Below are positions 49,268 through 56,382 of a stretch of DNA of 64,000 nt, piece by piece. The position numbers and the translations under genes are program-made. The notes beneath the pieces were generated by a model. It ran no database searches and was not told where the DNA came from. It saw only the letters and a list, made by a program, of their open reading frames with translations. Origin of the DNA: Flavobacteriales bacterium (lineage in GTDB: Bacteria; Bacteroidota; Bacteroidia; Flavobacteriales; Flavobacteriaceae); contig JAMOUV010000010.1 in NCBI GenBank assembly GCA_027067965.1, forward strand, positions 496,001 through 560,000, given 5' to 3'. The number at the start of each line of letters is the position of its first letter. Position 1 is the first letter of the stretch.

Positions 49268-50200
49268 TTAATGTGTGTCCGGGTCCAAGTAATTGGGAAT
49301 ACCGTCGCCGTCGTCATCGTCATCCGTCGGATCTCCGTTTCCGTTGGTATCTTCCTGTTTGGTAGGAAGAGAGTCACCGTCGTCGTCGGCATCCATATAA
49401 TTGGGTATATTCGGAATTTTATATTTATCTTCGAGTTCTTTGTCCGTGTTGTCATCCGTCGGGTCCAAATTTCCGTTAAGGTCTTCTATAATGTTGGGGA
49501 CATTATCTTTGTCGAAATCCTGATTAACGGCCAGCGTTTTAAATTTCACAATTACCGGCGAGTAGGCGGGTAATCTCGTAAAGTTTTGATCGCTTGCCGC
49601 TACGGCATATTGATAATTGGCCAAACCCGACGGCAAAAATACAACTCCTATACCATAACCGGAAAACAAGACGGTACCGTCCGGATTAGCCGTATAAGTG
49701 CCCACATTAAAATCCGGTAAGACCTTCCGGAGTCCCAAGGCGCCCATTCCTATATGGGGAGTCCATACATTGGTCCATTGCGGAAACAATTCGGTTTTTC
49801 TTTTTATCATATTCAATTCGAAATCCTGAATTTCATAAGCCAACAATACGCCGTCGGCGGTTGTAATGGAATCCGATTGCCCTTCTGCAATTTTCAGATA
49901 ATAGATATCGTAAGTCAAATCTTCCACGGCTGTATCCTGCATTTGAACCAATATGGCATCGTCATATATAGTCCGTTGACCGGGATCTGTCACGGGTTCT
50001 ATGTGCACATTATAATATGCATCCAGGACATAAGTGTGTGTTTTGATAAAATTCAAAATGGAATCTTTTTCCTTGGCATACTGTTCTTTCCGGTCTCTGA
50101 TTTTAAATTCTACTTCTTCTTTTTCTTTTTTGCATTTGCTTGACAAGAGTAAAAGGCCTGTAATAAGTATGAGAATGCTGCTTTTTCCTGTTAATTTCAT
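49268..50200 (-). CDS. FKBP-like lipoprotein with C-terminal Asp-rich calcium-type repeats
   Basis: This 310-residue protein has a signal ending in SSKC (probable lipoprotein). A middle domain (about 75-230) resembles exported FKBP-type peptidyl-prolyl isomerases of Flavobacteria (GVLLAYEI, NPDGTVLFSGYGIGVVFLPSGL). The last 75 residues are thrombospondin type 3-like Asp repeats (DFDKDNVPNIIEDLNGN, DADDDGDS, DDDDDGDGIPNYLDPD) that probably bind Ca2+. It probably assists folding of exported or surface proteins. It is divergent from the S4 gene and heads the pta-clpC run. Confidence 0.75.
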   Translation of the reverse strand: MKLTGKSSILILITGLLLLSSKCKKEKEEVEFKIRDRKEQYAKEKDSILNFIKTHTYVLDAYYNVHIEPVTDPGQRTIYDDAILVQMQDTAVEDLTYDIYYLKIAEGQSDSITTADGVLLAYEIQDFELNMIKRKTELFPQWTNVWTPHIGMGALGLRKVLPDFNVGTYTANPDGTVLFSGYGIGVVFLPSGLANYQYAVAASDQNFTRLPAYSPVIVKFKTLAVNQDFDKDNVPNIIEDLNGNLDPTDDNTDKELEDKYKIPNIPNYMDADDDGDSLPTKQEDTNGNGDPTDDDDDGDGIPNYLDPDTH

Positions 50201-50268
50201 CTGTCGTCTTTTTTCAGTCGCAAGTTATGAATTTTACTTAACTTTATAGCAATAATTATACCTTTTTT

Positions 50269-50649
50269 ATGCGGATTGATAAATTTTTATGGAGTGTAAG
50301 ATTTTACAAAACGCGGAGTAAGGCATCGGATGCGTGTAAACGTCATCATGTCACTATCAACGGTATGCCGGCCAAGCCCTCAAAGGAAGTTTTTCCCGGT
50401 GATGAGATTAGTGTTCGAAAGGATCAAATCACTTATATTCTTCGTGTGCTTAACTTGCCCGAAAATCGCCTTGGAGCCAAATTAGTGCCTTATTATGTAA
50501 AGGATTTGACGCCTCCCGAAGCATTCGAACATAAGCGACTCATGCGTGATGCACAACTTTATTACCGCAAGAAAGGAACCGGCCGGCCGACTAAAAAAGA
50601 TCGAAGGGCATTGGACAAACTCTTTGAGGGCGGGGAAGAAGAGGAATAA
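50269..50649 (+). CDS. hslR: Hsp15-type S4-domain RNA-binding protein
   Basis: This 126-residue protein starts with an S4 domain (RIDKFLWSVRFYKTRSKASDACKRHHVTING) followed by a basic tail, the layout of HslR/Hsp15. In E. coli this protein rescues stalled 50S subunits carrying nascent chains. It is a single gene in a 68-bp divergent arrangement with the FKBP-like lipoprotein. It ends at a terminator shared with the OmpA gene. Confidence 0.88.
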   Translation: MRIDKFLWSVRFYKTRSKASDACKRHHVTINGMPAKPSKEVFPGDEISVRKDQITYILRVLNLPENRLGAKLVPYYVKDLTPPEAFEHKRLMRDAQLYYRKKGTGRPTKKDRRALDKLFEGGEEEE

Positions 50650-50665
50650 TAAAAATTGATTTAAA

Positions 50666-50699
50666 AAAAAGAGACTGCCTTCTGAGACAGTCTCTTTTT
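50666..50699. terminator. Bidirectional terminator between hslR and the first OmpA gene
   Basis: A 12-bp perfect stem (AAAAAGAGACTG/CAGTCTCTTTTT) with a 10-base loop has T-runs on both strands. It is homologous in position to the terminator at 52875-52906. Confidence 0.88.
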
Positions 50700-50717
50700 G
50701 AATATATTGACGCGGAT

Positions 50718-52517
50718 TTAGTTTTTATTAAATCCGGGGTCTTTCGGGCAGATTACTTTAAATTCCGTTCGTCTGTTTAATTGATGTTCCGCTTCGCTAC
50801 AAGGTACACCGTCGTCGCAGCGATTGAGCAATTTGCTTTCGCCGTAACCGACGGCTTTAATTCTGTTCGGGCTGATGCCTTTGGAGATGATGTAATTTAC
50901 GGCCGCTTCGGCACGTTTTTGCGATAATCTCATGTTATAGGCATCCGAACCGCGGCTGTCGGTGTGTGAACTGAGTTCAACGATGACGTCTGAATTTTCT
51001 TTCATGAATTCAACCAGTTTGTCCAATTCGGGTTTGGCATCCTCGCGGATATAGTATTTATCGAAGTCATAGAGGATGTTGTTCAAGCGAATGGGTTTGC
51101 CGCAATCGGCTTTGTCCATACAAATTTCGAGGTTGATAAACATGGTTTTGCTGCGGTCGAAGTCGGCGGTTGAGATATGTTCGGTTTGCGAGAAATATTT
51201 TTGTTTTTTACCGTAGAGCGAATAATTGGCTTTTTGTTTTAGATAGAAGGTGAATTTACCGTCTTTATCGGTGATTGTTGTTTTTTTAACGGCATTGTCT
51301 TTGTCTTCCAAAACCACCGTCACATCTTCGAGCGGGATATCGGTATTACACTTGACTACTTTTCCTTTTAGGATAAAGTTTTCGTCTTCGTACCATAAGG
51401 TTTTCTTGATATTTTCGCCTGCTTTGAATTCGGATTTATCCACGCTTGCCGGGGTTAGTGCTTTTTCGTTCCATGCTCCTTCGATTTTGTAATTACCTTC
51501 TTTGATATTTTCGAACACATATACGCCGAAGTCGTTGGTGGTACCGGTTTTGAGGATATCGCCCGCTTCATTTTTAAGCACAACATCGGCGCCGGGCAAG
51601 GTTTGTTCGGTAAAGCGGTCTTTGGCCGTGACGACGATATTGGTTACCACTTCTTTTTTCACGGGCGGTGGAATGGGTACCGGTTTGGGTTTGGGTGCGA
51701 ATTTAAAGGTTATACCGGCAAAAATGCCAAGCGAAGAAATATTGATTTTTTTGGATTTTATGTAATCCATATTTTTAACCAAATAATAATCTCCCAAATC
51801 ATCGCTTCTTTCCTCTAAATTAGTATAAATAGAAGAATATACATGTTCATAGCGATCGGTCAGTTCTTGGACTTTAAAATGAGTCAGGTAATAACTGCCC
51901 ACATGAAATCCCATCATGTCATTAAAGAAATAAGTGAATCGTACTTGCGCTTTGGCCGAAATGGCATGCGTGTCGAATCCGGCATAATAATTATATAAAT
52001 TATCCCAATCTCCTTGTTCTGTACTTCCGGTAAGGATTACTTCACCTCCTTTGATTGATCCGTAACCGCCACGCAGGTTCAGTTCCGTCATAAAATTCTC
52101 ATTTTCGTATTTGAAATCCGGTCCTATTCCGAAAAACATCCGGGTAATTTTCTCTTCCGTTAATTTCCAGTCGGTTATTTTTACCAAACCTATATGCGTG
52201 TCATAATAGGAGCGTACATACACATTTTCAGTAGGGAATGTGGATACGGGTTTGTTCTGGATATAGTCGAAATCAAATCCTAAACCGAACCAATCCCAAT
52301 AGTAGTCCAATGAAGTGCCTCCTTCCAAGCCACCTTTGAATTTAATGTAGGGTGCTTTGGTATTATACATCGGAAGCACATCATAGCCACCTCTGAAACT
52401 CAGCATAAAACTGTTCTTTTTTTCCGGAGTTGTTCCCGGGGAGACTGCTTCTTTGACTTCCTGAGCATAACTTAAGCCAAAGAGCAAAAGACCGATGATG
52501 AGAAATAATTTCTTCAT
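50718..52517 (-). CDS. OmpA-family outer membrane protein, tandem copy 1
   Basis: This 599-residue protein has a signal peptide (MKKLFLIIGLLLFGLSYA), an N-terminal beta-barrel of about 255 residues, a proline linker (PKPKPVPIPPP), two carboxypeptidase-regulatory/CNA-B-like beta domains (about 290-365 and 380-445), and a C-terminal OmpA peptidoglycan-binding domain (ELSSHTDSRGSDAYNMRLSQ, then RIKAVGYGES). The last 325 residues are identical to copy 2. The first 52 are almost identical, and the barrel between them differs at many sites. It probably anchors the outer membrane to the wall. Confidence 0.92.
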   Translation of the reverse strand: MKKLFLIIGLLLFGLSYAQEVKEAVSPGTTPEKKNSFMLSFRGGYDVLPMYNTKAPYIKFKGGLEGGTSLDYYWDWFGLGFDFDYIQNKPVSTFPTENVYVRSYYDTHIGLVKITDWKLTEEKITRMFFGIGPDFKYENENFMTELNLRGGYGSIKGGEVILTGSTEQGDWDNLYNYYAGFDTHAISAKAQVRFTYFFNDMMGFHVGSYYLTHFKVQELTDRYEHVYSSIYTNLEERSDDLGDYYLVKNMDYIKSKKINISSLGIFAGITFKFAPKPKPVPIPPPVKKEVVTNIVVTAKDRFTEQTLPGADVVLKNEAGDILKTGTTNDFGVYVFENIKEGNYKIEGAWNEKALTPASVDKSEFKAGENIKKTLWYEDENFILKGKVVKCNTDIPLEDVTVVLEDKDNAVKKTTITDKDGKFTFYLKQKANYSLYGKKQKYFSQTEHISTADFDRSKTMFINLEICMDKADCGKPIRLNNILYDFDKYYIREDAKPELDKLVEFMKENSDVIVELSSHTDSRGSDAYNMRLSQKRAEAAVNYIISKGISPNRIKAVGYGESKLLNRCDDGVPCSEAEHQLNRRTEFKVICPKDPGFNKN

Positions 52518-52925
52518 TTGTTTAAAGTTTTAAGATAGTTGAATAAATATATTTCGTCGAGAATGGTTTTCGGTGAAATTCCGTTAATTTCAAATAAACG
52601 GAAGATTTTTCGGTGGGAATTTTTATATAATTCGTAAGAAAAAAACGACTCAAGGAAAATTTTCCCGATCTTTGCGATGATGAGCGAGAAACAAGTTTTC
52701 ATGACTTTAATGTTTAGCAAACCCCATTATTGGTAAATAATGACGCTGCTATTACATATAAATTAATTAAATTTACATACATGTGCCATATATCACACTG
52801 ACAAAAGTCAGAAAACTGCCGTTAATAAATATGGCAGCCATGTGTTTTTCAATTAGGATTAATATTTTATAATAAAAAAGGACTGCCACATCCGGCAGTC
52901 CTTTTTGAAATACATTTACAATGAT
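52518..52925. other. Gap between the two OmpA genes
   Basis: These 408 A/T-rich bases hold no credible gene. They contain the terminator of copy 2 (52875-52906), a small CTGAC-AAAA-GTCAG hairpin (52798-52811) and, near 52560, a TATATTTA sequence that may be the -7 box of copy 1. Confidence 0.55.
52875..52906 (-). terminator. Rho-independent terminator of OmpA copy 2
   Basis: A 13-bp perfect stem (AAAAAGGACTGCC/GGCAGTCCTTTTT) with a 6-base loop, 19 bases after the stop. It is clearly related to the terminator of copy 1, so the duplication included the 3' region. Confidence 0.9.
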
Positions 52926-54716
52926 TTAGTTTTTATTAAATCCGGGGTCTTTCGGGCAGATTACTTTAAATTCCGTTCGTCTGTTTAATTGATGTTCCGC
53001 TTCGCTACAAGGTACACCGTCATCGCAGCGATTGAGCAATTTGCTTTCGCCATAACCGACGGCTTTAATTCTGTTCGGGCTGATGCCTTTGGAGATGATG
53101 TAATTTACGGCCGCTTCGGCACGTTTTTGCGATAATCTCATATTATAGGCATCCGAACCGCGGCTGTCGGTATGTGAACTGAGTTCAACGATGACGTCTG
53201 AATTTTCTTTCATAAATTCAACCAGTTTGTCCAATTCGGGTTTGGCATCCTCGCGGATATAGTATTTATCGAAGTCATAGAGGATGTTGTTCAAGCGAAT
53301 GGGTTTGCCGCAATCGGCTTTGTCCATACAAATTTCGAGATTGATAAACATGGTTTTGCTGCGGTCGAAGTCGGCGGTTGAGATATGTTCGGTTTGCGAG
53401 AAATATTTTTGTTTTTTACCGTAGAGCGAATAGTTGGCTTTTTGTTTGAGATAGAAGGTAAATTTACCGTCTTTATCGGTGATTGTTGTCTTTTTAACGG
53501 CATTGTCTTTGTCTTCCAAAACCACCGTCACATCCTCGAGCGGGATATCGGTATTACACTTGACTACTTTTCCTTTCAGGATAAAGTTTTCGTCTTCGTA
53601 CCATAAGGTTTTCTTGATATTTTCGCCTGCTTTGAATTCGGATTTATCCACGCTTGCCGGGGTTAGTGCTTTTTCGTTCCATGCTCCTTCGATTTTGTAA
53701 TTACCTTCTTTGATATTTTCGAACACATATACGCCGAAGTCGTTGGTGGTACCGGTTTTGAGGATATCGCCCGCTTCATTTTTAAGCACAACATCGGCGC
53801 CGGGCAAGGTTTGTTCGGTAAAGCGGTCTTTGGCCGTGACGACGATATTGGTTACCACTTCTTTTTTCACGGGCGGTGGAATGGGTACCGGTTTGGGTTT
53901 GGGTGTAAATCTAAAGGTCAGACCGGCAAAAACGCCGATGGAAGAAATATTCACCTTTTCGGGTTTTTTATATTCATATATAGTGCCATGTAATTCACCG
54001 GGGTATTCGGGATCTTCTACAAAATTCAAATAAATATATGAATAGACATGTTCATAAGGGTCGGTTAATTCTTGAACGTTGAAGTGATTCATGTAATAAC
54101 CACCTGCATGGAATCCGACCACGTCATTAAAGAAATAAGTGAATCTTAATTGGGCTTTTGCCGAAATGGCACCCGTGTCAAATCCGGAATAATAGTTAAT
54201 TAATCTTTCGTATCCTTGTTCCGTCTCACCTTTCAGTTGAACCTCTCCGCCTTTAATGAGTCCGTAACCTCCACGCAGGTTAATTTCCGTGATAAAATCC
54301 TCATTGCCGAATTTAAAATCAGGTCCGAGGCCGAAAAACATGCGGGTTATTTTTTCTTCCTTTAAAGACCAGTCCGTTATTTGAATAAAATAATAACTGT
54401 CGATGTATTCGGAGATATAAAAATTTTCGGTAGGGAATGTGGATACGGGTTTATTTTGGATATAATCGAAATCAAATCCTAAGCCGAACCAATCCCAATA
54501 GTAGTCCAATGACGTGCCTGCTTCGATGCCCCCTTTGAATTTAACGAAACGGGTATTATTGTTATACATCGGAAGCACATCATAGCCACCTCTGAAACTC
54601 AGCATAAAACTGTTCTTTTTTTCCGGAGTTGTTCCCGGGGAGACTGCTTCTTTGACTTCCTGAGCATAACTCATGCCAAAGAGCAAAAGACCGATAATGA
54701 GAATAAATTTCTTCAT
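52926..54716 (-). CDS. OmpA-family outer membrane protein, tandem copy 2
   Basis: This 596-residue paralogue of the preceding gene has the same order: signal peptide, beta-barrel, PKPKPVPIPPP linker, two CNA-B-like domains and the OmpA C-terminal domain. From the linker to the stop (325 residues) the protein is identical to copy 1. I count about 12 nucleotide differences there, all silent. The barrel part differs in loop-like stretches, for example the segments after NKPVSTFPTEN and after YEHVYS. This suggests recent duplication or conversion of the periplasmic half. Confidence 0.92.
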   Translation of the reverse strand: MKKFILIIGLLLFGMSYAQEVKEAVSPGTTPEKKNSFMLSFRGGYDVLPMYNNNTRFVKFKGGIEAGTSLDYYWDWFGLGFDFDYIQNKPVSTFPTENFYISEYIDSYYFIQITDWSLKEEKITRMFFGLGPDFKFGNEDFITEINLRGGYGLIKGGEVQLKGETEQGYERLINYYSGFDTGAISAKAQLRFTYFFNDVVGFHAGGYYMNHFNVQELTDPYEHVYSYIYLNFVEDPEYPGELHGTIYEYKKPEKVNISSIGVFAGLTFRFTPKPKPVPIPPPVKKEVVTNIVVTAKDRFTEQTLPGADVVLKNEAGDILKTGTTNDFGVYVFENIKEGNYKIEGAWNEKALTPASVDKSEFKAGENIKKTLWYEDENFILKGKVVKCNTDIPLEDVTVVLEDKDNAVKKTTITDKDGKFTFYLKQKANYSLYGKKQKYFSQTEHISTADFDRSKTMFINLEICMDKADCGKPIRLNNILYDFDKYYIREDAKPELDKLVEFMKENSDVIVELSSHTDSRGSDAYNMRLSQKRAEAAVNYIISKGISPNRIKAVGYGESKLLNRCDDGVPCSEAEHQLNRRTEFKVICPKDPGFNKN

Positions 54717-55047
54717 TTGTTTAATTTTAATTTGAAATGATGATTTATAAATATGTGATATTGAAAAGAAAAATTTTTTGTTGCTAATACCGCTAATGAA
54801 GAATTATTAATCGAAGTTCCAAAAAATTTGAAAAGTAATGGCGGTTCGTCTATATATATACGATGAACCGGAGAGGAAAAAATAGTAATCCCCAACATGC
54901 GGTTTTTCATGGCTTTATTTTAAGTAAACTCAATGGCCGAAATGAACCGGCCGTTTTGTTTACCAATTCATTTTCATCCAATCTATAGAAAAAAAAATTT
55001 TTATAAATTGATATTTATCAGGATTTTTATAATATATCTCAAGATTT
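54717..55047. other. A/T-rich gap upstream of OmpA copy 2 with two hairpins
   Basis: No gene is seen in these 331 bases. A hairpin with a 9-bp stem and a TATATATATAC loop lies at 54842-54870. A second one, GGCCG/CGGCC inside GTAAAC/GTTTAC arms (54924-54963), may end the leftward btpA transcript. No exact TAnnTTTG box was found for copy 2. Confidence 0.45.
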
Positions 55048-55554
55048 TCATAAAACATCGGCCGGTTTGATATAACCTAATGCATAAAGATATTTTTTTA
55101 ATTCATGTAAGAAAGTAGGCAAGTCTTTTTGTTCCTGAATAACCAAATCGTAGAATTGCATTTGATCGGGAGTAGTGCCTATCCGAAAGCCGGCTTGAAT
55201 TCCCGAAGATACCAAACGTTCTTTTGTATTTTTCAAAGAAGAAAAATCGATGAGGAGATCGTAGTTTTTATTAAAATATTTTTGAATATTGGGTTCAATT
55301 AATTTGCCCCGCCAATTGAAATGAGCATCCAATACACTGACAAAATCGGGGTGTGGTTCATCGTTAGATAGAAATAACACATCCCATTTGTCATAAGGAA
55401 TACTTGTTATATGACTTAATTTTCTTATAAAATTTTTATCAATAGATGTTTCGGAGGGAAAGATAATAATACCGGAACGCAAGGGTAATTCCAATGTGTT
55501 TTTCTTCTTTAGGTTATTTTCAATTCTTTTATTAATCAAATATTTTTTCCACAT
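55048..55554 (-). CDS. Conserved Bacteroidota protein, DUF6913-like
   Basis: This 168-residue cytosolic protein has the pattern of a basic N-terminus (KKYLINKRIENNLKKKN), an ETSIDKNFIRKL segment, HFNWRGKL, then YDLLIDFSSLK and AGFRIG. It resembles the DUF6913 proteins of Flavobacteria, an assignment from memory with moderate certainty. No catalytic motif is obvious. It lies six bases after btpA on the same strand, so the two are probably one operon. Confidence 0.6.
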   Translation of the reverse strand: MWKKYLINKRIENNLKKKNTLELPLRSGIIIFPSETSIDKNFIRKLSHITSIPYDKWDVLFLSNDEPHPDFVSVLDAHFNWRGKLIEPNIQKYFNKNYDLLIDFSSLKNTKERLVSSGIQAGFRIGTTPDQMQFYDLVIQEQKDLPTFLHELKKYLYALGYIKPADVL

Positions 55555-55560
55555 AACGAT

Positions 55561-56382
55561 TTAAGTATTTTCCAAAAACCGGAAGCGTTCCATCAACAAA
55601 TGCACACGATTTTCATCCACCGGGTTTTGCCATTTGCCTTGCATTTTAAAATAAGAACCCACGATAAAAGCATCGGTGTAAGGATAATAGGAATCCAAAT
55701 TTTCGGCCGTTACGCCCGAACCGATGAGTACGGGCAAGCGGGTTTGTTGCCGTACCGCTTTCAATTCTTCCACATCCACGGCTTCGCCCGTATGGCCTGC
55801 CGTAATGATGAGACCGTCGGAACGGAAAAATTCGGCTGCACGGGCATGTTCCGTAATATCCGTATCGGCTGTCAGTTGATGCGAAGCATGTTTTTTCTTG
55901 ATATCGGTAAATACGGCAATATGTTCCGCTCCGATGTGTTTGCGATAGCGCAATAACTCCCCGGCATCCGATTGCATAAATCCTTCGTCGGCCATGTGCC
56001 CGAAAACAAAACCTTCGGCACGAATGAAATCCATTCCGCTTGCCAATGCTGCCGCCAGCGCTTGTTTATTGGCCCCGGCCAAAATTTGAATACCGACGGG
56101 AATGGCAAATTCTCTTTTCAACATATAGCCGATGACAGCCATGGATGTGGATATCTCATGCCCTGCTTTCCGGTTTAAATAGGGTACATCGTGCATATTT
56201 TCAATCATCAAGCCGTGTATTCCGTGTTTGATATAAATTTCGGCTTCATTCAATGCCTTATCCATCACCGTATTAAAATTTCCTTGATAAAAAGGCGTTC
56301 CGGGAAGCGGCCGCACGTGAACCATGGCAATAACCGACTTGGGCCGGTTGAAAATACGCTGAAAATGACCGACGGATTCCAT
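55561..56382 (-). CDS. BtpA/SgcQ-family TIM-barrel protein
   Basis: This 273-residue protein of the BtpA family (COG0434) shows the N-terminal VIAMVHVRPLPGTP and GIHGLMIENMHDVPY motifs, then ILAGANKQALAAALASGMDFIRAE and the phosphate-site-like PVLIGSGVTAENL. The family is named for a cyanobacterial photosystem I factor, but most members sit in sugar or nucleoside catabolic loci. I used the ATG at 56382; the longer frame begins with a TTG at 56424, which nearly touches psuK. It is divergent from psuK-psuG, with 44 bases between the starts. Confidence 0.85.
   Translation of the reverse strand: MESVGHFQRIFNRPKSVIAMVHVRPLPGTPFYQGNFNTVMDKALNEAEIYIKHGIHGLMIENMHDVPYLNRKAGHEISTSMAVIGYMLKREFAIPVGIQILAGANKQALAAALASGMDFIRAEGFVFGHMADEGFMQSDAGELLRYRKHIGAEHIAVFTDIKKKHASHQLTADTDITEHARAAEFFRSDGLIITAGHTGEAVDVEELKAVRQQTRLPVLIGSGVTAENLDSYYPYTDAFIVGSYFKMQGKWQNPVDENRVHLLMERFRFLENT

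Follow-up and report, generated by a model that had tools for sequence, protein, structure and literature searches.

Identical C-terminal halves and diverged predicted barrels in a tandem pair of OmpA-type genes from a member of the Flavobacteriaceae

Two OmpA-type genes in tandem

Our analysis concerns a window of 64,000 nucleotides (positions 496,001 to 560,000 of contig JAMOUV010000010.1, assembly GCA_027067965.1, from a Flavobacteriales bacterium of the family Flavobacteriaceae) in which two OmpA-type genes lie in tandem on the minus strand. Copy A (50718..52517, 599 amino acids) and copy B (52926..54716, 596 amino acids) have the coordinates, strand, and lengths given in the initial annotation of this DNA, and both reading frames are intact. 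The encoded proteins are identical throughout their C-terminal half and strongly diverged in a predicted N-terminal barrel, a mosaic most likely caused by recombination between the copies.

Pfam matches and structure models give both proteins the same domain order: a signal-like N terminus, the barrel, a PKPKPV linker, immunoglobulin-like domains (SdrD_B/CarboxypepD_reg), and an OmpA domain. The latter matches PF00691 above the gathering score in both copies (E values of 3e-20 and 4e-20), and, judging from this domain alone, its function would be peptidoglycan binding. The AlphaFold models, built from a shallow alignment of seven sequences, are of moderate overall confidence (mean predicted local distance difference test scores [pLDDT] of 74.1 for A and 75.3 for B, with predicted template modeling scores [pTM] of 0.41 and 0.40), and the longest loop is poorly modeled. 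In both models, eight long strands are joined by four long and three short connections, and the N-terminal half is accordingly predicted to be an eight-strand OmpA-type barrel. A Foldseek search, carried out with copy B, ranked the immunoglobulin-like repeat proteins TIE and SdrD at the top, followed by the OmpA-type C-terminal domains of PorE and OprF; barrel matches appeared further down (OmpA-short 9fzc_A at rank 33 and OmpW 2f1v_A at rank 50), with low query template modeling scores and high root mean square deviations.

A mosaic of silent divergence

From the PKPKPV linker to the stop codon (codons 275-599 of copy A), the codon alignment is identical at 325 of 325 residues, and the DNA of this half (50718..51695 in A and 52926..53903 in B, minus strand) differs in exactly 12 codons, each by a single base and all silently, which agrees with the 325 residues and about 12 silent sites counted in the initial annotation. 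All 12 differences lie in codons 383-599, where the synonymous divergence (dS) is 0.10; codons 275-382 have none. The first 52 residues had been described as almost identical, and they differ at only three positions (4, 5, and 15): codons 1-15 carry three replacements and one silent codon difference, and codons 16-51 are without any difference. Between these segments lies the diverged barrel (codons 52-274 of A, 51696..52364; codons 52-271 of B, 53904..54563; both minus strand), which is 67.3% identical over 220 ungapped codons, with a dS of 0.85, a nonsynonymous divergence (dN) of 0.22, and three one-codon indels that all fall in predicted extracellular loops. At 0.06, the dS of the whole C-terminal half is 14-fold below that of the barrel, so that silent sites agree far better in one segment of the paralogues than in the remainder, which is one mark of concerted evolution. 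These rates were obtained by a simple counting method, and the divergence of the barrel is high.

The contrast also holds when only degenerate codons for the same residue are counted, as silent differences occur in 1 of 45 such codons within the first 51 codons, 44 of 144 in the barrel, and 12 of 319 in the C-terminal half (barrel versus C-terminal half, Fisher P = 6e-15). The longest identical runs flank the barrel on either side, with a further run of 125 bp within the C-terminal half. A 328-bp tract lies just after the barrel (alignment nucleotides 821-1148; 51370..51697 in A and 53578..53905 in B, minus strand), and a 110-bp tract lies just before it (alignment nucleotides 46-155; 52363..52472 in A and 54562..54671 in B, minus strand). 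In the conversion-tract check that had been suggested for this pair, the longest stretch free of silent changes exceeded what 20,000 permutations would give (P = 0.0002). The 328-bp stretch moreover differs from the rest of the C-terminal half (0 of 106 versus 12 of 213 codons; P = 0.01), a modest indication that the part adjoining the barrel may have been converted more recently than the others. Near-identity stops 3 nucleotides past the stop codon. Beyond that point, the 3' flank is identical at 35 of 54 columns through the terminator, and the 5' flanks agree at 159 of 314 positions.

Relatives, compared here as one genome per species, provide a scale for these differences. The C-terminal half is 65% to 67% identical to two homologs, L035 and L036, versus 49% to 55% for the barrel; when a third homolog, L037, is included, the mean identity is 61.8% for the C-terminal half of B and 63.8% for its barrel strands. 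Silent sites of the C-terminal half are saturated against all three homologs and are thus not frozen. Residues 1-35 are poorly conserved in the family (32%), yet A and B show only three differences there; the loops are conserved at 26.5%. When the distance between the A and B barrels is scaled by these relatives, 94 to 99 nonsynonymous differences would be expected in the C-terminal half, whereas none is observed.

Proposed recombination and its alternatives

We propose, at a probability of roughly 85%, that A and B are tandem paralogues from an old duplication whose C-terminal half and short 5' stretch have been overwritten by recombination between the copies. In this scenario, the pair would represent lineage-specific paralogues of a flavobacterial OmpA-type outer membrane/cell wall anchor, and the barrel dS would mark their duplication as not recent. 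Subsequent recombination would have replaced the 3' half and the short 5' stretch, the barrel would have escaped, and the tracts touching the barrel would perhaps be the latest to be overwritten. Displayed together, the two proteins may present alternative surfaces built on a wall anchor that they share. The gene conversion named in the initial annotation is supported by the silent-site contrast, the zero-difference tracts, the diverged flanks, and the missing replacements, and intragenomic conversion would be the process responsible. That the duplication is not recent is also indicated by the abrupt end of near-identity behind the stop codon and the divergence of both flanks. Recombination is favored because selection on the protein is not expected to lower silent divergence; a second, independent argument is that in relatives the barrel strands are conserved about as well as the C-terminal half, yet of these two parts only the strands differ between A and B.

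An explanation without recombination, by extreme purifying selection on the C-terminal half together with relaxed or diversifying selection on the barrel, would account for the presence of silent changes and the lack of replacements in the former. However, selection on the protein does not reduce silent divergence 14-fold, nor to zero over 328 bp, and the limited identity to L035 and L036, with saturated silent sites in the comparison with all three relatives, argues that it did not produce the identity of the C-terminal halves; we consider this explanation scarcely tenable. The purifying selection assigned to the wall-binding half by the initial annotation therefore fails as the cause of identity. 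It is supported for the period after the copies last exchanged sequence, as 12 silent and no replacement changes have a probability of 6e-6 at the dN/dS of the barrel (0.26) and of 0.01 at a dN/dS of 0.1. Alternatively, the whole gene may have been duplicated recently and one barrel then replaced by a diverged allele from another strain or species. This would generate the same mosaic within the gene, with the exact tracts beside the barrel as crossover zones, but a recent duplication including the flanks should have left these about as alike as the C-terminal half (about 94% of silent sites), which is far from the flank identities observed. Furthermore, in a barrel tree of 12 rows, A and B are sisters with 100/100 support, the nearest sequences by path being L035, L036, and L037, and neither copy is clearly nearer to any sequence outside the pair (51.5% and 49.6% identity to L035 and 48.0% and 47.4% to L036 for A and B, respectively). 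Import of one barrel from another lineage is thus unsupported by tree or identities, and we regard it as unlikely.

An assembly artifact, in which a collapsed or chimeric repeat made the C-terminal halves look alike, is suggested by the draft state of the genome and by contigs that end in OmpA C-terminal sequence, which occur in several members of the genus and once in this genome. Against this, 12 separate silent differences have been kept, both genes are intact, and a single contig of 658,957 bases spans them, which makes such an artifact very improbable. In another genome of the genus, G008, two contigs (C24 and C18; loci L072 and L073) start with the same 127 nucleotides, comprising an OmpA C terminus and stop codon, before diverging, as if the assembly had broken within an OmpA 3' repeat; other OmpA genes of the genus may thus share their 3' ends as well. 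In the genome under study, no third copy or dispersed relative that could feed conversion was found: the other OmpA genes reach at most 59% protein identity over the OmpA domain, and at the DNA level only short matches occur elsewhere (135 to 209 bases, 68% to 72% identity). It is also conceivable, if quite unlikely, that the pair is a minimal barrel-exchange system, in which the 110-bp and 328-bp tracts stay identical because they serve as recombination arms and whole barrels move between two loci that differ in their upstream regions. Such a swap would change the surface expressed on a constant wall anchor, and two overlapping open reading frames upstream of the genes (see below) would then be part of an expression switch.

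Several points weigh against recombination between the copies as we propose it. With a single strain of the species compared, conversion is deduced from the two copies and may have run in either direction. The draft genome comprises 33 contigs, and an assembly error in an exact repeat of 328 bp is conceivable. The significance of the zero-difference tract relative to the remaining C-terminal half is modest, and the high barrel dS, resting on simple counting, would be an underestimate if the barrel was once partly converted.

Divergence of the barrel itself is concentrated in loops, as noted in the initial annotation, and the refuting case named there, differences mostly in strands, does not apply. 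After residue 51, 47 of 95 residues differ in the predicted loops of the B model (49%), versus 24 of 124 in strands and turns (19%; P = 3e-6). The diversifying selection proposed for these loops, in contrast, is unsupported, as their dN/dS is 0.28 (bootstrap range, 0.11 to 0.53), well below 1 in a pairwise test with low power for single sites; the value for strands and turns is 0.17 (0.09 to 0.32). Sliding windows of 40 codons, another of the suggested checks, peak at a dN/dS of 0.61 at codons 241-280 and never reach 1, windows without silent change giving no ratio. Relaxed constraint would produce such a bias toward loops, and nothing asks for positive selection. A literature search for phage or host pressure on the pair returned nothing. 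Silent divergence by counting is 1.43 in loops versus 0.62 in strands and turns; as this contrast is not significant when only codons for the same residue are counted (18 of 47 versus 26 of 97; P = 0.18), we do not propose that conversion was patchy within the barrel.

Flanks, distribution, and related systems

Each copy is followed by a terminator hairpin on the minus strand (50666..50699 for A and 52875..52906 for B), and both fold strongly (z = -6.33 and -6.05). The two are homologous, as had been noted, though diverged, and transcription of each copy probably ends separately. The opposite strand of the hairpin behind A also folds (z = -4.8), serving a convergent gene for an Hsp15-like protein. 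With intact reading frames and a strong terminator behind each of them, A and B are probably expressed separately as outer membrane proteins, which the shared half would tie to the wall and which would show different loops. Their dissimilar upstream regions suggest separate regulation. The Bacteroidota-type promoter motif, TTTG/TAnnTTTG, occurs at about chance level in the window, with no match upstream of A or B. A scan of 50500-55200 for sigma-70-type sites returned 19 (12.8 ± 3.6 in shuffled sequences), two of them just upstream of B; these were not treated as promoter evidence, and no promoter was identified for either copy.

Both genes are preceded by an ATG-started open reading frame on the minus strand (52514-52702, 62 amino acids, and 54713-54910, 65 amino acids) whose stop codon overlaps the ompA start codon (ATGA). 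Upstream frames of at least 60 codons arise in 86 and 47 of 20,000 shuffles, and none of 12 homologs checked has an overlapping upstream frame of at least 30 amino acids. Identity between the two frames is flat over codon positions (29, 27, and 27 of 56 each), and the peptides show no clear resemblance. Without codon-position signal, clear protein similarity, or a Pfam match, we do not claim them as genes. Beside the pair, the gene at 49268-50200 (minus strand) matches the NCBIfam family BamM at 148.6 bits, under the cutoff of 315, and encodes an Asp-rich tail.

Five neighboring genes, compared with another genome of the genus (G007), have dS values from 1.49 to saturated (one over 58 codons only), all above the barrel dS. 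The duplication is thus probably younger than the split from G007, unless the barrel was once partly converted. None of the 8 other genomes in the genus yielded the pair; one of them, G005, has only a barrel fragment cut by a contig end, so that a pair is possible there. This fragment and the pair itself are the only barrel matches among the nine genomes (2 of 9), and the fragment is closer to barrels of other genera. The genes for DUF6913 and the Hsp15-like protein, which flank the pair here, directly adjoin in G007, G002, and G003, forming a junction without the pair. In G004, a CZB-domain gene lies at this junction, with near-identical DNA in G006; the two flanking genes are on different contigs in G001 and about 27 kb apart in G008, and neither was found in G005. 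The simplest reading is that the pair is probably a gain in the lineage of the window, with loss elsewhere possible. The junction of the two convergent genes (50649-55048 in the window, and L101-L105) is a possible insertion hotspot.

Among 199 genomes sampled from the family, 395 from the order, and 395 from the class (draws that overlap and include the genome itself, with the 3 to 6 best candidates scored per genome), every other genome with a full-length match had just one among the matches listed. A scan of genome contigs yielded five relatives, four with one full-length copy in the fetched DNA (one of these on a 4.9-kb contig). The fifth, L038, is a metagenome-assembled genome of the Porphyromonadaceae, in which a barrel OmpA gene is followed by a gene with another N terminus and a homologous CarboxypepD_reg-OmpA end (L038:7131-10524). 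The two C-terminal ends are 55% identical over 210 residues, making these tandem OmpA genes without homogenization.

The A/B pair would belong with the known concerted evolution of outer membrane paralogues. In Helicobacter pylori, according to PMC2795765 and PMC4552749, the 3' segments of babA/babB and homA/homB evolve in concert by intragenomic conversion, with a variable segment elsewhere. Our pair resembles these in being outer membrane paralogues with a concerted 3' segment and a variable part elsewhere; it differs in its tandem arrangement, in a conserved half predicted to anchor the protein to the wall from the periplasm, and in the predicted eight-strand barrel that forms the variable part. 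Unlike for Bab, no CT-type phase-variation repeat was found in 50000-55600, the only repeats there being 2.5-copy 6-mers inside genes and a 2-copy 21-mer at 55011-55053. Closer in phylogeny (phylum Bacteroidota) are the OmpA-like proteins Pgm6/Pgm7 of Porphyromonas gingivalis, likewise a pair with consecutively numbered genes (pg0695/pg0694), which, in the passages of PMC6112661 that deal with them, can form heterotrimers and are described with one transmembrane region; concerted evolution is unmentioned in these passages. The barrel predicted here sets our pair apart by description. A CarboxypepD_reg-OmpA C-terminal part is also shared with the CHU_0125 family of OmpA-like outer membrane integrity proteins (NF053607) and with PorE (NF052230). 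The scores are, however, far below the cutoffs (207.6 and 209.4 bits for A and B against 620, and 143 bits for B against 600), and the barrel half lies outside the stretch of B that these profiles match. No description of the present pair was found in the literature searched, mostly at the level of abstracts.

In conclusion, the kind of gene-twin evolution that the pair suggests is familiar, and the example is clean. It would provide a sharply bounded natural case of a surface protein whose anchor half is homogenized and whose exposed half is left free to diverge. The other full-length carriers of this flavobacterial OmpA architecture in our samples are single copy among the matches listed. 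If it is true that strains swap barrels, the pair would constitute an additional locus of antigenic or phage-receptor variation in Bacteroidota; otherwise, it would represent ordinary concerted evolution.

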